NCBI GenBank assembly: GCA_029265995.1
Contig: JAJUFM010000003.1
Span: 1 to 64,000, forward strand
Origin: Rhodospirillaceae bacterium
Lineage (GTDB): Bacteria > Pseudomonadota > Alphaproteobacteria > Kiloniellales > DSM-21159
DNA length: 64,000 nt
Direction of reading: 5' to 3'
Shown here in pieces: positions 55,529-63,434 of this stretch (positions within the stretch are counted from its first letter, which is position 1; each line of letters opens with the position of its first letter). The notes under the pieces were generated by a model. The model saw only the letters and a list, made by a program, of their open reading frames with translations. It was not told the origin of the DNA and did no database searches. Position numbers and translations under genes: made by a program.

Positions 55529-56560
55529 ATGGTAAACTCGCTGCGGAGCGGCCTTGTCCGCTCCTCTCTTTTAGGTGGTTTTGTCGCCGCCTTCGCTACC
55601 GCATCAGTAGCACATGCCGATTCCATCACCGTCTACACCTCTTATGAAGAGGATGAGCTGTCGGCGTTTCTGGAGCGTATGGAAGATACCCTTCCGGACC
55701 TGGAGGTGAACGTGCTCCGTCTCTCCACCGGAGACCTCCACGCGCGCATGCTGGCGGAGGCTGACAATCCACAGCATGACGTCATCTGGGGGTGGGCGCT
55801 TACCTCAATGGTCGACCCACGTATTCTCGACATGCTGGAGCCTTACGCGCCGAAAAACATCGACCGCGTGCCGGAACGCTTCAGAGACCCTGAGGAACGC
55901 TGGTTCGCCGTGACAGGCTACATGGGTGCATTCTGCGTCAACAATGACGTTCTTGAAGGCAAAGGGCTTCCCATGCCCAGCTCCTGGGAGGATTTGCTGG
56001 ATCCCGTCTATGAAGGCGAGATCGTCATGCCGAACCCGGCGAGTTCCGGCACAGGTTACTTGCAGATCGCATCACTTCTTCAGATGAAGGGTGAAGAGGA
56101 AGGCTGGGAGTTCCTGCGCGCCCTCGACAAGAACATGGCGCAGTACATCAAGAGCGGGTCGCGCCCGTGTAACGTCGCCAGCCAGGGCGAGTACGCGATC
56201 GGTTCGTCCTTTGCCTTGCGCGCCATCAAAAACATCAACGAGGGCTATCCCATCACCATGGTGATTCCGGCTGAAGGCGCGGGTAATGAGCTGGAAGCCA
56301 ATGCCCTGATGGCGAGCTCTGAGAACAAGGAAGCGGCCAAGCGCTTTCTCGATTGGACGCTCAGCGACGCGGCCGTAGAGGAATACTACACCTGGAAGGA
56401 GATCGTAACCGTCTCCGGTGGCCAGATTCCCCAAAGCTTCCTCGACGCGGGCCTTCCAGAGGACATCAGCTCGGTCATGTATGACATGGACTTTTCCTGG
56501 TCTGCCGAGAACCGCGACCGCATCCTCGAACAGTGGCAGAGCGAGTTCGAGACCGAGTAA
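55529..56560 (+). CDS. ABC transporter periplasmic binding protein (2-aminoethylphosphonate or Fe3+ type)
   Basis: Binding protein (343 aa) of the bacterial extracellular solute-binding family 1/6 that includes FbpA and the AEP binders PhnS2/AepX. Signal peptide at about 1-30 ending AHA-DS. Mature part starts ITVYTSYEEDELSAFL; further marks are RFRDPEERWFAVTGYMGAF, PNPASSGTGYLQIASLLQM and KSGSRPCNVASQGEYAIG. Overall similarity and the operon layout favour 2-aminoethylphosphonate, but iron or polyamine cannot be excluded. First gene of a three-gene operon. Confidence 0.85.
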   Translation: MVNSLRSGLVRSSLLGGFVAAFATASVAHADSITVYTSYEEDELSAFLERMEDTLPDLEVNVLRLSTGDLHARMLAEADNPQHDVIWGWALTSMVDPRILDMLEPYAPKNIDRVPERFRDPEERWFAVTGYMGAFCVNNDVLEGKGLPMPSSWEDLLDPVYEGEIVMPNPASSGTGYLQIASLLQMKGEEEGWEFLRALDKNMAQYIKSGSRPCNVASQGEYAIGSSFALRAIKNINEGYPITMVIPAEGAGNELEANALMASSENKEAAKRFLDWTLSDAAVEEYYTWKEIVTVSGGQIPQSFLDAGLPEDISSVMYDMDFSWSAENRDRILEQWQSEFETE

Positions 56561-56586
56561 CAGCGCCGGCTAACCGGTCGCTTAAA

Positions 56587-56638
56587 GTGGCGGACGGACT
56601 CGCTGAAGCGGCGTTGCCTGGTCGGCGTCGTCCGCCAC
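56587..56638 (+). other. Intercistronic hairpin between binding-protein and ATPase genes
   Basis: GTGGCGGACG (56587-56596) is the exact complement of CGTCCGCCAC (56629-56638); the 32 bases between can fold further. It lies 27 bp after the binding-protein stop and about 25 bp before the ATPase start. Stems at this position in transporter operons often protect the upstream binding-protein message or attenuate the downstream genes. Confidence 0.55.
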
Positions 56639-56662
56639 CTTCCAGATAAAGCGGAGCGTTAT

Positions 56663-57718
56663 ATGTCCCTGCGCATTCGCAGCGTGGTGAAGCAATTCGG
56701 TAATGTAACCGCCCTCAACCAGGTATCGCTCGACGTCGACGCGGGGGAATTCGTCTGCTTCCTCGGACCTTCAGGATGCGGCAAGACCACACTTCTGCGG
56801 GTGATTGCCGGCCTGGAACAGGCAGACGCCGGGGATGTGCTTCTCGACGACAGAAACTTGATCGATGTGCCGGCGCGTCTGCGGAATTTCGGCGTGGTGT
56901 TCCAATCCTACTCCCTCTTTCCCAACATGAGCGCCGCGCGCAACATCGCCTATGGCCTGGAATGTCGGCGCTGGGCGAAACAGCGCACGCAAGCGCGGGT
57001 TAAGGAAATGCTCGACCTGGTCGCGCTAAGGGATCAAGCGGAAAAGCTGCCCAGCCAGATGTCCGGCGGGCAGCAGCAGCGCATTGCGCTTGGGCGCGCC
57101 CTGGCCCCTGATCCTGAGGTCCTTCTGCTGGATGAACCTCTTTCCGCGCTGGATGCGAAGGTTCGAGAGGATCTCCGTCTAGAAATCCGCGCCCTCCAGC
57201 AGCGCCTCGGCATTACGACGATCATGGTTACTCATGATCAAGAAGAAGCCCTTACCATGGCGGATCGTATCGTCGTGATGAACGCCGGCCGAATTGAACA
57301 GGTAGGAACCGCTCAAGAGCTTTATCACGCTCCAACAAGCAGGTTCGTCGCCGAGTTCATTGGAAGGATGAACGTCATACCTGTGGAAGGCAGTGCCGAC
57401 GCGCTGCGATTTGCGGGTCGCCCAATCGAGCTCCCAGCTAAGGAACGCGAGGGAACCCCCGCGGTCCTTGGGCTGCGTCCCGAAGACGTGCTGGTACGCC
57501 ACGGAGATGAGTTTGTGGGCCAGTCGAACCTGCTGAAAGCGCGGGTGAGACAATCCCTATTCCTGGGGAATATCACCCAGCTGCTACTGGAAGTTTCGGA
57601 CAACGCGCCACCGCTTCTCGCCGAAGTTCATGCTGCCCACGCTTTCGCCCTTCAGAATGGTGCAACGTTGCAAATCGAGCTGCCACCGCACGCCCTGAAG
57701 GTGCTGGAATGGCGCTGA
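56663..57718 (+). CDS. ABC transporter ATPase, AEP/spermidine/Fe3+ type
   Basis: ATP-binding subunit (351 aa). Walker A GPSGCGKTTLLR (about 36-47), Q-loop FQSYSLFPNM, signature QMSGGQQQRIALGRAL (about 132), Walker B LLLDEPLSALD, switch His MVTHDQEEAL. A C-terminal TOBE-type regulatory domain (about 235-351) is present. It overlaps the permease gene by 10 bp. Substrate is inferred from its partners. Confidence 0.92.
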   Translation: MSLRIRSVVKQFGNVTALNQVSLDVDAGEFVCFLGPSGCGKTTLLRVIAGLEQADAGDVLLDDRNLIDVPARLRNFGVVFQSYSLFPNMSAARNIAYGLECRRWAKQRTQARVKEMLDLVALRDQAEKLPSQMSGGQQQRIALGRALAPDPEVLLLDEPLSALDAKVREDLRLEIRALQQRLGITTIMVTHDQEEALTMADRIVVMNAGRIEQVGTAQELYHAPTSRFVAEFIGRMNVIPVEGSADALRFAGRPIELPAKEREGTPAVLGLRPEDVLVRHGDEFVGQSNLLKARVRQSLFLGNITQLLLEVSDNAPPLLAEVHAAHAFALQNGATLQIELPPHALKVLEWR

Positions 57719-59397
57719 GTCAAAGTTTGGGACAAGCCGTGTCCCGTACGAGCCGCCGAACCCCTCAGGACCGGCTGCCCATGGTCATTGCCAGCCTGTT
57801 GGTTGGCGCGCCGCTGCTGCTATTCATCGTTTATCCGCTCTCCTTCATTCTGGGCCGCAGCTTTTCCACCGGAGAGGGCTTCGGCTTCGACAACTATGTG
57901 TCGATGCTGACCACCGCGCGTTTCCTGCGCATCGTTTATAATTCATTCGAAGTGACGCTAGTCTCCACGCTCCTCGCGGTGGGCATTGCCTACGCCTTTG
58001 CCTACGGAATCCAGCGAACGCGCATGCCTGGGCAGAACGTCATGCGCATCGTTGCGCTTGTACCGCTCTTCGCACCTTCGCTCGTTCAGGCTCAGGGACT
58101 GGTGCTGCTGTTTGGCCGGAACGGCCTGATCAACCGTACCTTTGGCACGCAAATCGACATCTATGGCTACTGGGGAATCGTCATCGCGATGGTTCTCTAC
58201 GTCTTCCCATACGCCTTTCTAATTCTCTCGGCGGCCTTGGCCGTCGCGGACGCGCGGCTCTACGAATCGGCAAGAATGCTCGGCGCCGGAGCATGGCGAA
58301 GCTTCCGGACGGTAACCCTTCCCTCCACCAAGTACGGCCTGGCCGCCTCCATCTTCGTGTGCTTCACCCTGGTGATCACCGACTTCGGCAACCCAATGGT
58401 CATCGGCGCCAACTACAACGTACTGGCAACCGAGGTCTACAATCAGGTCATCGGACAGGCGAACTTCGAGCGTGGAACGGTGATCGGAATGGTTCTTCTG
58501 ATTCCGGCCGCCGTCGCTGCGATCCTGGAAAAGTACATCAGCCGACGGCAGTACAGCCTGGTTTCGGACCAGTCGCGCCCTCTGGAGCTCCATCGCGAAC
58601 GCCGGCGCGATCTTGTTTTTGCAGCCTTCTGCTCGTTCATTTGCCTGGCGATCCTGTCGATCGTCGCCGTCGTGATCTTTGCCAGCTTCGTCCATCTCTG
58701 GCCCTATCGCATGACCTTTTCCACGCGCCATTACCAGTTCGATGTCCAGAACGGGATCCAGCCCCTGTGGAACTCGATCTACATCTCGCTGATGGCCGCC
58801 GGCCTGGGGGTCGTGGTCGTGATGGCTGCCGCCTACGTGGTCGAGAAGTTCAAGTCGCCCGCCAGCCGGACGATCTATTTCCTGTCCATTCTTCCGGCGG
58901 CAGTACCTGGCATGGTGCTCGGCCTCGGCTACATCCTTGCCTTCAACAATCCGTCTAACCCGGTGTACCTGATCTACGGCACCCTGGTGATCATCGCCAT
59001 TGCCAACGTCTATTACTACCATGCTCAGGGATTTCTGATCGCCTCCACATCGCTGAAGCAGATCAGCAGTACCTTTGATGAGGCCTCCGCAACACTTGGT
59101 GGGACCCGGCTGCAGACTCTGCGGAAGGTCACTTTGCCCTTGATGGCACCGACCCTCATTGGCGTGGCGGTCTTCTTTTTCATGCGCTCGATGGTAACGC
59201 TGTCAGCCGTAATCTTTCTGATCACGCCGCAAACTCAGGTGGCCGCGGTTTCAGTACTCCTTCTGGAAGATCGCGGCGCCACCAACCAGGCAGCGGCCTT
59301 CTCGGTCTGCATCATGGTGACGGTCGTAAGCGCACTGCTGCTGGTGCGCCTTCTCCTGCGTCTTACGGGAATTCGGGGGCTCCGCTTAATCCGTTAG
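57709..59397 (+). CDS. ABC transporter permease, two permease domains in one chain
   Basis: Inner-membrane protein (562 aa) with about 12 membrane segments in two tandem permease halves, each with an EAA-type loop (YESARMLGAGAWRSFRTVTL at about 184; FDEASATLGGTRLQTLRKVT at about 455). Double-length permeases occur in the FbpB, PotB/C-fused and AEP PhnU2/AepW groups. The stretch TDFGNPMVIGANYNVLATEV recalls the AEP group. Last gene of the operon. Confidence 0.9.
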   Translation: MALSQSLGQAVSRTSRRTPQDRLPMVIASLLVGAPLLLFIVYPLSFILGRSFSTGEGFGFDNYVSMLTTARFLRIVYNSFEVTLVSTLLAVGIAYAFAYGIQRTRMPGQNVMRIVALVPLFAPSLVQAQGLVLLFGRNGLINRTFGTQIDIYGYWGIVIAMVLYVFPYAFLILSAALAVADARLYESARMLGAGAWRSFRTVTLPSTKYGLAASIFVCFTLVITDFGNPMVIGANYNVLATEVYNQVIGQANFERGTVIGMVLLIPAAVAAILEKYISRRQYSLVSDQSRPLELHRERRRDLVFAAFCSFICLAILSIVAVVIFASFVHLWPYRMTFSTRHYQFDVQNGIQPLWNSIYISLMAAGLGVVVVMAAAYVVEKFKSPASRTIYFLSILPAAVPGMVLGLGYILAFNNPSNPVYLIYGTLVIIAIANVYYYHAQGFLIASTSLKQISSTFDEASATLGGTRLQTLRKVTLPLMAPTLIGVAVFFFMRSMVTLSAVIFLITPQTQVAAVSVLLLEDRGATNQAAAFSVCIMVTVVSALLLVRLLLRLTGIRGLRLIR

Positions 59398-59493
59398 GGT
59401 CGAGCGTGTCACGGCAAAGACGCTTGTGTGTTCGCCGTGCCCACCCCTAACTTCCAATCTGGAAACATTGAGACGGATTCAGGAGGCGGGAGA

Positions 59494-60351
59494 GTGGCAC
59501 AAGGCGCATTTCTATCAACGGCCTCTCTCGCTGCCTTCTGCCTGATTCTACTTGGAGCCTGTTCCACCGATGAAGAGTTGCCCCCTCCTGTGGTGGCAAC
59601 ACCTGTTCAGCAAGCCCGTCCGCTGCCGCCTCCCGCGGAAGCCCCAAAATCCCGCCTGCTGATCGCAGCCGCCTCCCCGGAAGCCGACGAGGCGGAGGAA
59701 TCCACTGAAGCGCCAGAGAGTGCCCCGGAGAGTGAACCTGCGACACCAAGCGCTCCTATCCCGCGCCCTCCGGCTCCCTCGCCGCCTGCTGCGGAAGTAG
59801 CAGTACCTCCCGCCCCTCCTCAGAAACCCCAGGCCAGCGCTCCCACTTCCCCGGTAGAGGAAGCGACACCTCCGGAAGCAGAAGAGGTGTCGCAGATGGC
59901 GGAGGAAGCAAGCACTGCTCCAGAGCCCTCCTCAGAACAGGCTGATCCGCCCCAGGAAGATGATGGCGGCGAGCAAAGCACGGAACTGGAAGAGATAGAA
60001 ATCGAAGACCAGCAAGCGGTCCTGCCCCCAGGAGACGCGCCGGAGAGGCTGCGTCTTCAGTTTCAGGCGGGCGAGGTCGAGCTGACGGAGGCCATGCAGG
60101 ACCAACTGCTGCAGGTTGCGCAACAACTGAGGACGCACGAGGAGGAGCGTATACAGCTTCTCGCCTACGCTTCCGGTTATGAGGAGGACATCAGCCGGGC
60201 GCGGCGGCTCTCCCTGGCTCGAGCTCTTGCTGTACGGGCCTTTTTGCTGGACCAGGGTATCCGCTCAACGCGGATGGACGTGCGCGCCCTCGCGCGCAGT
60301 GAGGGGAACGCGCCAGCGGACCGGGTAGACGTCGTACCTCAGGGTGAATAG
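59494..60351 (+). CDS. Pro/Glu-rich lipoprotein with OmpA-like C-terminal domain
   Basis: Envelope lipoprotein (285 aa). GTG 59494 has AGGAGG seven bases ahead; hydrophobic stretch and lipobox LILLGAC end at about residue 23. A Pro/Ala/Glu low-complexity linker runs to about residue 185, then a compact OmpA-like region (LRLQFQAGEVELTEAMQDQL, RARRLSLARALAVRAFLLDQ). The long linker could span the periplasm. It lies 143 bp upstream of the MotA/ExbB-like gene and may belong functionally with the two genes that follow. Confidence 0.8.
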   Translation: MAQGAFLSTASLAAFCLILLGACSTDEELPPPVVATPVQQARPLPPPAEAPKSRLLIAAASPEADEAEESTEAPESAPESEPATPSAPIPRPPAPSPPAAEVAVPPAPPQKPQASAPTSPVEEATPPEAEEVSQMAEEASTAPEPSSEQADPPQEDDGGEQSTELEEIEIEDQQAVLPPGDAPERLRLQFQAGEVELTEAMQDQLLQVAQQLRTHEEERIQLLAYASGYEEDISRARRLSLARALAVRAFLLDQGIRSTRMDVRALARSEGNAPADRVDVVPQGE

Positions 60352-60494: not shown

Positions 60495-61652
60495 ATGACG
60501 CGTCCGCAGACCTACCTGATCCGCATGGGCATTTTTCTTGCCCTCGTGCTTGCTGCAGCGGCAGCGCTTTATCCGCAGCTATCGGATGCCTTCTTTGCCA
60601 ATGCCGTGCTGAACGGCATGATTCTGGCCGTCCTTCTGCTGGGCATCATCTATTCCTTTCGCCAGGTACTGCTCCTGCGCAACGAGATCGCCTTTATGGC
60701 GCAACTGAAGCGGGAAAGCAGCGGAGGCCTGATCTTCCCCGGACAGATGACGCAGTTGGAGGCGCCGCGGCTGCTGGGGCCGATGGCGCGGATGCTGCGT
60801 GAGCGCAAGGGACGGATCACGCTCTCCACCCTTTCAATGCGCACGCTCCAGGATGGGATTCGCCTGCGCATCGACGAAAGCCACGACATCTCGCGCTATC
60901 TCGTAGGTCTGCTTATCTTCCTCGGCCTGCTCGGTACCTTCTGGGGGTTGGTCGAAACCGTGAACTCAGTGGGACAAACAATCGGATCCCTCTCCCTCGC
61001 AGGAAGCGACCCAGGCACACTTTTCGGCGAACTGCAGGAAGGCCTCCAGCGACCGCTCGGCGGCATGGGCACGGCCTTCTCCTCCTCTCTCTTCGGCCTG
61101 GCCGGCTCGCTGGTGCTGGGCTTCCTCGAACTACAATCCGGCCAGGCGCACAACCGCTTCATGAACGAGATGGAAGAATGGCTCTCGGGCATGACGCGAA
61201 TCAGCGGCGGCGGCTTTGCGGGTGGCGATGGAGAGGCATCGGTGCCAGCCTATCTGCAGGCGCTGCTGGAACAGACCGCCGACAGTCTCGCCAGCTTGCA
61301 GCAAACCATCCAGGCAGGCGAGGAAGACCGACAGGTCGCCAACCGCAATCTCGTTACGCTGACGGAACGCCTGACCTTACTTACCGACCAGATGCGCACG
61401 GAGCAGGAAGTGCTACGCCGCCTGGCGGAAACCCATGCCGCCATCCGCCCCTTGCTCGCCCAGATCAGCGACAGCAAGTTCTCCTCTGGTGAGCTGGATG
61501 AGGTAACCCGCGATCATATCCGCAGCATCAATCTGAACCTGGGCCGCGTGGCCGACGAACTGCGCGGAGGCCGCGAACAGACCGTAGAACAGATTCGCAG
61601 CGAAATCCGCCTTCTGGCGAGAACCATTGCAGCGCTGGCGGAAGAGGGTTGA
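60495..61652 (+). CDS. MotA/TolQ/ExbB-family proton-channel protein
   Basis: Inner-membrane protein (385 aa). Two membrane segments near the N-terminus (about 9-28 and 35-55) are followed by a cytoplasmic region. Two more carry the family signature: LVGLLIFLGLLGTFWGLVET (about 136-155) and GGMGTAFSSSLFGLAGSLVL (about 190-209). The C-terminal 170 residues are cytoplasmic and helical. No flagellar, tol or ton genes are nearby. The partner 15 bp downstream carries the proton-site Asp. Probably forms an ion-driven stator-like complex of unknown purpose. Confidence 0.82.
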   Translation: MTRPQTYLIRMGIFLALVLAAAAALYPQLSDAFFANAVLNGMILAVLLLGIIYSFRQVLLLRNEIAFMAQLKRESSGGLIFPGQMTQLEAPRLLGPMARMLRERKGRITLSTLSMRTLQDGIRLRIDESHDISRYLVGLLIFLGLLGTFWGLVETVNSVGQTIGSLSLAGSDPGTLFGELQEGLQRPLGGMGTAFSSSLFGLAGSLVLGFLELQSGQAHNRFMNEMEEWLSGMTRISGGGFAGGDGEASVPAYLQALLEQTADSLASLQQTIQAGEEDRQVANRNLVTLTERLTLLTDQMRTEQEVLRRLAETHAAIRPLLAQISDSKFSSGELDEVTRDHIRSINLNLGRVADELRGGREQTVEQIRSEIRLLARTIAALAEEG

Positions 61653-61667
61653 GCGGGACGAGACTAG

Positions 61668-63434
61668 ATGTATTCGCTTAACCGCAGCGGCAGAACGCGT
61701 TCGACCAACATTTGGCCGGGCTTTGTCGATGGCCTGGCGACCCTGCTGCTCGTCGTCATTTTCGTGCTTATGGTCTTCGTCATCGCGCAGTACTACCTCT
61801 CGGTAGCTCTCTCGGGGCGCGACGAACAACTGGCACGGCTCGACCGACAGATCAGCGAACTGAGCGAACTACTCGCCCTAGAACGCACGACCAGCAGCAA
61901 CCTGCGCGACACGCTGGACAGCCTAACGATGGAATTCCAGGCCTCCGTCGAAGTGCGGGACGCACTCGTCCAGGAGTTGGCGCGCCTCGAGGAGCAGCGT
62001 GATAGCCTGTCGGATCAGCTCGCGGGGCTGATGCAGGAACAGGAAGAGACGGAAGGGGAACTCCTCGCCCTGGCGGAGAACCGCGACGCCCTCCGCCAAC
62101 GCTTGACCGAAGCGGAGCAGCGCGGGGATACGCTGGCGATCGATCTTGCTGAGGCGGAGCAAACGATCGAAGCGGATAAGGAAACGATCGAGACCCAGCT
62201 GGCCGAAATGGCGCTGCTCCGTGACATCAGAGAAGAGCTTGAGCAGCAGGTCGCAGAGCGGGAGCGTGATCTGCGGGCTACTGAGGCACTGCTCGAGGCG
62301 AGCCGTGCTACGCTGAATGATTTGGAGCAAGAGGTTGCTCGACAGGCCGCGCGCCTCGCCCAGCAGGACGAAGAACTTACGCAGACACGCGAAACGCTAT
62401 CCGAGACCCAGATTGCGCTTAGCGAAGCGGAAGCAACGGTAGCTCGGCAGGCTGAAGAGATTGCCTCCCAAGCTGACGAGATCCAGCTTTCTAGCGTGAC
62501 GCTTGAACGCCTGGAAGCGATGTTGGCCGCCAGGGAAGCGACCCTGGCCGAGCGAGAGGAATCTCTCCAGGCCCGAGCTCAAGAACTTGCGCTCAGCGAA
62601 CAAACTTTGGAACGCGTGCGAGAGCAACTGGCCGAGCGTGATCGCCGGATCGACGAGTTGGAAGCACAGCTTGCAGCCCTCGACGAAAGCAATGAGCAGC
62701 GTGCAAGCGAGCTGGAGACGATCCGTGCAGCGCGCGACGCGCTGATGCAGCGGCTGCAGGAGCGCGCGGCACAGCTCACCCAGCAAGAGCAGGTGTCAGA
62801 AGAAGCGCAGCAGCGGGTCGACTTGCTGAACAGCCAGATCGCGGCCCTTCGTCGGCAGCTGACCAGCCTTCAGGCGGCCTTGGAAGCCTCGGAAGAGCGT
62901 GAGCGCGAACAGGAGGTCCAGATCGCCGATCTCGGCAGGCGCCTGAACATGGCCTTGGCAAGCCGGGTTCAAGAGCTTGCTCGCTATCGCTCAGAGTTTT
63001 TCGGCCGGCTACGGGAAATTCTGGGGGATGACAATCCGGATATAGAAATCGTCGGCGACCGCTTCGTGTTTCAGGCAGAAGTTCTCTTTCCCAGCGGTTC
63101 CGATGCCCTGCAACCCGAGGGCCGCCAGCAAATCCGCCAGTTGGCAGTCTTGTTGCGCGATCTAGCCGACCGGATACCCGATGATATCGATTGGGTGCTC
63201 CGAGTGGATGGTCACACAGACCGTCGCCCTATCGCGACACCCGACTTCCCATCGAACTGGGAGCTCTCCAGCGCTCGCGCAATATCGGTCGTCAGGCTAT
63301 TGCTGAACGAAGGCATCCCGGCCAACCGTCTGGTCGCAGCCGGCTTTGGGGAGCACCAACCGCTCGACCCACGCAACACCCTCGACGCCTACGACCGCAA
63401 CCGCCGCATCGAGCTCAAGCTGACGGAGAGATAG
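61668..63434 (+). CDS. MotB/OmpA-like stator partner with very long coiled coil
   Basis: Protein of 588 aa: one membrane segment (about 18-40, GFVDGLATLLLVVIFVLMVF) with Asp21 where MotB has its proton-binding Asp. A nearly unbroken coiled coil follows (about 45-430), rich in Leu, Glu, Gln, Arg and Ala. It ends in an OmpA-like peptidoglycan-binding domain (about 455-588; VLFPSGSDALQPEGRQQIRQ, WELSSARAISVVRLLLNEGI, YDRNRRIEL). It lies 15 bp after its ExbB-like partner. The coil could span the periplasm. Its last 20 bp overlap the convergent phosphotransferase gene. Confidence 0.85.
   Translation: MYSLNRSGRTRSTNIWPGFVDGLATLLLVVIFVLMVFVIAQYYLSVALSGRDEQLARLDRQISELSELLALERTTSSNLRDTLDSLTMEFQASVEVRDALVQELARLEEQRDSLSDQLAGLMQEQEETEGELLALAENRDALRQRLTEAEQRGDTLAIDLAEAEQTIEADKETIETQLAEMALLRDIREELEQQVAERERDLRATEALLEASRATLNDLEQEVARQAARLAQQDEELTQTRETLSETQIALSEAEATVARQAEEIASQADEIQLSSVTLERLEAMLAAREATLAEREESLQARAQELALSEQTLERVREQLAERDRRIDELEAQLAALDESNEQRASELETIRAARDALMQRLQERAAQLTQQEQVSEEAQQRVDLLNSQIAALRRQLTSLQAALEASEEREREQEVQIADLGRRLNMALASRVQELARYRSEFFGRLREILGDDNPDIEIVGDRFVFQAEVLFPSGSDALQPEGRQQIRQLAVLLRDLADRIPDDIDWVLRVDGHTDRRPIATPDFPSNWELSSARAISVVRLLLNEGIPANRLVAAGFGEHQPLDPRNTLDAYDRNRRIELKLTER

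Follow-up and report, generated by a model that had tools for sequence, protein, structure and literature searches.

A three-gene locus, X-A-B, on balance probably encodes an ion-driven envelope motor that Alphaproteobacteria have in addition to those of Tol and Ton, and that most likely couples membrane energy mechanically to cell wall growth or cell separation. The locus lies in the window, the whole 64,000-nucleotide stretch of DNA that was analysed. The open reading frames of A and B are located where an earlier note on this DNA had placed them, both on the forward strand and separated by 15 base pairs. The note considered a force-transmitting envelope machine plausible for the pair, and a wall-anchored, ion-driven machine is still the best reading. 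The family name of B and the 5:2 kind of motor are already known; the frequent partner gene X and a coiled coil of quantised length in B are added here. The features of the locus are:

59494–60351, forward strand: X, secreted Pro/Ala-rich protein with an OmpA-like domain at its end that lacks the wall-binding Asp
60495–61652, forward strand: A, motor channel subunit of 385 aa with four transmembrane segments, a predicted cytoplasmic tail at about residues 252–384, and the invariant Thr148
61668–63434, forward strand: B, 588 aa with an N-terminal transmembrane segment with Asp21, a coiled coil (residues 45–452), and an OmpA/MotB-type wall-binding domain (residues 459–587)
61800–63023, forward strand: coiled-coil region of B (residues 45–452), the length of which changes from species to species in heptad steps

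Subunit A has four hydrophobic segments comprising residues 7–25, 34–52, 135–153, and 193–211. The AF2 model of A has a pLDDT of 85, and the top 50 matches from a fold search of the PDB with this model are all ExbB, TolQ, ZorA, or MotA (50/50), with a best E-value of 3e-3, probabilities of 0.82–1.00, and TM-scores to the target of up to 0.58, the highest being those to ZorA. The model thus predicts the MotA/ExbB/TolQ/ZorA fold for A, in agreement with the channel type that had been proposed for it. The Pfam scan of A from the window alone matched no motor-type model; PF01618 is matched by 50 of the 69 members of the A alignment at E < 0.01. Searching the PDB by sequence with the A family profile returned coiled-coil noise and no motor chain. 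A threonine in the channel of A and an aspartate in the membrane segment of B are hallmarks of 5:2 motors, and both are present and invariant: Thr148 of A, within the motif GLLGTFWG, is shared by all 69 A sequences, as are F195, S198, G201, and L202 of the fourth transmembrane segment. The last approximately 150 residues of A form a conserved C-terminal tail, modelled by AF2 as helices 252–326 and 336–384, which the predicted topology places in the cytoplasm.

In a maximum-likelihood tree built on the channel regions of A subunits, the A proteins form one clade (support 99/94) separate from MotA and TolQ/ExbB, so the placement inside the flagellar or Tol families that would have spoken against the earlier note was not found for A. 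The clade persists when MotA or ZorA is left out (support of 95 and 100, respectively). Two ZorA proteins of Zorya systems join the clade of A (99/98, with a long-branch warning). The motor is thus kin to those of the flagellum, Tol, and Ton without belonging to any of them, and A has its own clade, to which ZorA is nearest.

It is very improbable that A-B serves in anti-phage defence of the Zorya type, even though the channel region of A is nearest to ZorA in both tree and fold, and PADLOC reports ZorA1 with an E-value of 2e-12 and ZorB3 with 8e-24. ZorAB shares with A-B the channel fold, the membrane Asp in B, the OmpA-type wall-binding domain, and the cytoplasmic tail of A (PMC11890865). 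By contrast, X-A-B has no effector genes: no ZorC/D, ZorE, or Zorya III effectors adjoin A-B, the neighbours of which are X, suhB, efp, thiE, or unrelated genes, and the earlier statement that the locus holds no nuclease or helicase partner of the Zorya type was borne out. The NCBIfam model ZorA_4 scores 15.4 bits with A from the window, against a cut-off of 500, and full-strength matches to ZorA1 occur in 2 of 249 genomes. Furthermore, X-A-B differs from ZorAB in the very long coil of B and the extra gene X, and A-B is a core locus syntenic with thiE-efp-suhB across the class. Zorya membership was rejected on the grounds of effectors, ZorA cut-offs, and this distribution. The earlier note had set the pair apart from Zorya by the elongation of B, which holds, and by assigning the long tail to the ZorA side only, which does not, because A also carries its tail of about 150 residues.

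Subunit B has a single transmembrane segment (residues 22–40). Residues W16 and D21 are invariant in 60 relatives, as are D518, N530, and R537 of the wall-binding motif, and the OmpA domain has a score of 61.5 bits. Together with the coil, these features uphold the description of a MotB-like partner that keeps the membrane Asp and the wall-binding end and contains a coil of nearly 400 residues. The 408 residues of the coil include no proline, and their hydrophobicity has a period of 3.50 with a power of 6.87, compared with 0.79 ± 0.25 in shuffled sequences, none of 1000 of which reached 6.87; this periodicity rules out a chance coil. B is a member of the PRK09039 "peptidoglycan -binding protein" family, which is named with no function assigned. 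The NCBIfam model NF006543 gives B 466.8 bits, above the cut-off of 305, and the long form NF006542 (627 aa) aligns with residues 4–588 at 341, below the cut-off of 388. The family record fits B; however, it contains neither the partners A and X nor the register-locked coil. Unlike the B subunits in a survey of non-flagellar stators, which are reported to lack an OmpA-like domain (PMC12505986), those of the widespread A-B family carry one.

The host genome is a 3.17 Mb alphaproteobacterial draft with a completeness of 96.8%, and its named relatives put it close to Rhodovibrionaceae/Kiloniellales. Its only PF01618 matches are on other contigs, within a complete tolQRAB-pal cluster and an exbB/tonB cluster, both away from X-A-B, which confirms that no flagellar, Tol, or Ton genes are nearby. 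FlhA is absent from the genome, and the host appears to lack a flagellum. Since the full Tol and Ton systems are located elsewhere and FlhA is missing, X-A-B would therefore be a third, separate motor. The four transmembrane segments of A, together with the N-terminal membrane Asp and OmpA-type end of B, are shared with flagellar MotAB, and a pair in Komagataeibacter hansenii has been named motA/motB. Nevertheless, the tree and the lack of the flagellar export gene have already largely refuted a second MotAB set acting as a flagellar or gliding stator, which is extremely unlikely: the A proteins form a clade separate from MotA, B has the long coil, and the genome lacks FlhA. Membership in flagellar MotAB was rejected for the first and last of these reasons.

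The pair had been called an orphan; however, X is directly upstream in most loci, and A-B is a syntenic core locus that belongs to the core equipment of many Alphaproteobacteria. A is present in 56 of 60 relatives and in 124 of the 190 sampled genomes of the class, and B exceeds the NF006543 cut-off in 111 of these 190. The order fba/gapA - thiE - efp - suhB - (X) - A - B, with genes named from family clustering and by eye, recurs across distant families. In the window, an aminoethylphosphonate-type ABC transporter set upstream of X (55529–59397) replaces the usual efp-suhB; it is closest to phnS2, phnT2, and phnU2, each scoring slightly below its cut-off. B is followed by a gene in convergent orientation, the product of which has an APH-kinase domain. 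Reduced genomes of 0.7–0.9 Mb (L152, L153, L154, and L155) keep A, and some of them retain A-B, the A being short and without a tail. This retention suggests that the motor is hard to lose; a third envelope motor driven by ions seems to have been retained by many Alphaproteobacteria, including some whose genomes are reduced. No relatives were found in the viral contigs searched, the Rfam search gave no match, and the promoter and terminator scans returned no more than expected by chance.

The length of the coil of B was measured as the distance from W16 to S442, which is independent of alignment, in 151 dereplicated B proteins; the measurement failed for 40 of the 218 B frames. The distance ranges from 143 to 755 residues, and 117 of the 151 proteins fall into one class modulo 7 (chi-square p = 6e-105, ignoring shared ancestry). 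Moduli 3–6 and 8–12 show nothing, modulus 13 gives an uncorrected value of 0.011, and the result for 14 is a consequence of that for 7. As common ancestry links these proteins, a fairer test compares nearest relatives of unequal length, grouped into 67 disjoint pairs. The difference is a multiple of seven in 44 of the 67 pairs (1/7 expected, p = 1e-21) and a half-heptad (3 or 4 modulo 7) in a further 19. In the folded end of B, the distance from S442 to the HTD motif is 73 in 176 of 178 proteins, and the linker of X, a small control, has no modulo-7 preference (n = 23, p = 0.51). The possibility that the register lock is an artefact of gap placement was rejected, as the distance measure is alignment-free. 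No published description of a quantised-length coil in the B family was found. Among the longest coils seen is that of the approximately 996-residue B of Falsiroseomonas stagni (L139:10984–14127).

Insertions and deletions in coiled coils in general respect heptads. Tandem DNA arrays are present in 27 B genes, with periods that are multiples of 21 base pairs in 20 of them, and a 147-base-pair tandem block in the B gene of locus L143 equals its 49-residue length difference from that of locus L141. Therefore, the coils of B lengthen and shorten at least partly by the duplication and loss of whole heptads. In the B gene of the window, no heptad-size DNA repeats were found, and simple DNA repeats were rejected as the cause of the register lock there, although some relatives do carry duplications of heptad blocks.

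Free loops would violate the heptad rule, so the rod of B most likely has no interruption, and the coil probably forms a single continuous rod that is locked in register. The AF2 monomer model of B is broken at about residues 178–183 and 313–316; these low-confidence breaks would leave room for a rod that folds back over loops of constant length. The length of the rod from the window, calculated with 0.15 nm per residue, is about 60 nm. The depth of the periplasm is roughly 20–25 nm, and the rod is probably longer than this. A tentative proposal, which may well not hold, is that the motor has an uninterrupted drive rod that evolves in heptad steps to lengths of up to several periplasm depths and lies along the wall, pulling or sensing peptidoglycan laterally. 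If this were true, the motor would act tens of nanometres from its own position, a way of transmitting force for which Tol, Ton, Mot, and Zorya offer no known example.

In the favoured reading as an envelope motor, and by homology to 5:2 motors, a pentamer of A would surround a dimer of B, and the passage of ions at Asp21 would turn A against B. The B dimer would form a continuous two-stranded coiled coil, locked in register and free in length, which ends in a domain that grips peptidoglycan. The rod could carry the relative motion of the subunits to the wall, the tail of A could hand it on to a cytoplasmic partner, or both. X, as a secreted OmpA-like operon partner, would probably act at the wall or outer-membrane end of B, where it may contact B. 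Asp21 and Thr148, both invariant, lend themselves to direct tests, as do the partner X and the register rule.

Alternatively, A-B could be a strain sensor instead of a working motor, in which the wall-bound rod gates ion flow and the tail of A signals inside the cell. The tail of A is conserved, the free length of the rod suits a flexible tether, and ion flux through ZorAB has been proposed to bring a threat signal into the cell (PMC11890865). However, the locus has no conserved gene for a cytoplasmic partner, and the pore residues are as invariant as those of a working motor would be, which makes the sensor quite unlikely.

An experimental hint at the cellular role of an envelope motor of this kind comes from non-flagellate K. 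hansenii, in which motA and motB are an adjacent pair of MotA/ExbB-like and OmpA/MotB-like genes, and the products (348 and 321 aa) are sized like short members of the A-B family. From size and setting, the pair is likely to be orthologous to A-B. Overexpression of "motA" or "motB" resulted in longer, chained cells (PMC6570709), and that of the pair in faster colony spreading (PMC6570709, PMC6315621). These phenotypes are consistent with A-B having a role in cell wall growth or division; however, effects of overexpression can be unspecific. No knockout, essentiality, or other loss-of-function report for the A-B pair was found in the open literature. The Rgs proteins of S. meliloti (PMC7327166) were dropped as a lead, as that paper does not mention MotA/MotB. 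The earlier note had missed this probable homologous pair of Komagataeibacter, together with gene X, the NCBIfam family of B, and the class-wide core status of the locus.

The survey of gene neighbourhoods that the note had suggested identified X as the third gene: the X-domain profile recognises it as the gene immediately preceding A in 74 of the 80 named loci. X is adjacent to A-B in all nine same-family relatives and, elsewhere in the class, in 53 of 80 loci; A-B lacks an adjacent X in 27 of 89 loci. The likely start of X is the GTG at 59494 behind an AGGAGG site, as read from the sequence, and the longest open reading frame begins at the GTG at 59428. X matches PF00691 with 38.1 bits and its family profile with an E-value of 9e-36. 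In the alignment of 33 members, compared with the OmpA motif, the GHTD stretch with the wall-binding Asp reads roughly AYA-x, whereas the LSxxRA helix is kept. The X proteins of the window and of a sister species have a lipobox-like LLGAC signal, and most others look like ordinary secreted proteins.

The secretion of X, its OmpA-like domain, the lipobox-like signal in this genus, and the long Pro/Ala-rich linker would suit an energiser in which A-B drives X at the outer membrane for transport or stabilisation, as TolQR drives TolA-Pal. The elongation of K. hansenii cells upon overexpression also resembles Tol imbalance (PMC6570709). A-B shares the superfamily of its A subunit and the envelope setting with TolQR-TolA/Pal and ExbBD-TonB; however, A is in a separate clade, and B, unlike TolR or ExbD, has its own full-length coil and a MotB-like wall-binding end. 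Moreover, X lacks a transmembrane anchor that could reach A, A-B is frequently found where X is missing, complete Tol and Ton systems are already present in the genome, and no tolA, tolB, pal, or tonB adjoins A-B. The energiser is a doubtful alternative.

Many genomes also have X but no A-B (19 of the 20 such loci checked), with X sometimes still behind efp-suhB, and because X persists there, it probably has a function of its own in these genomes (loci L297–L316). X was rejected as an obligate subunit, since it occurs alone and A-B is also found without an adjacent X; it is a frequent partner of A-B. In one locus (L307:4704–9948), with neighbours read by eye, a gene of the X family directly follows ftsQ, ftsA, and ftsZ, a possible sign of a connection with division.
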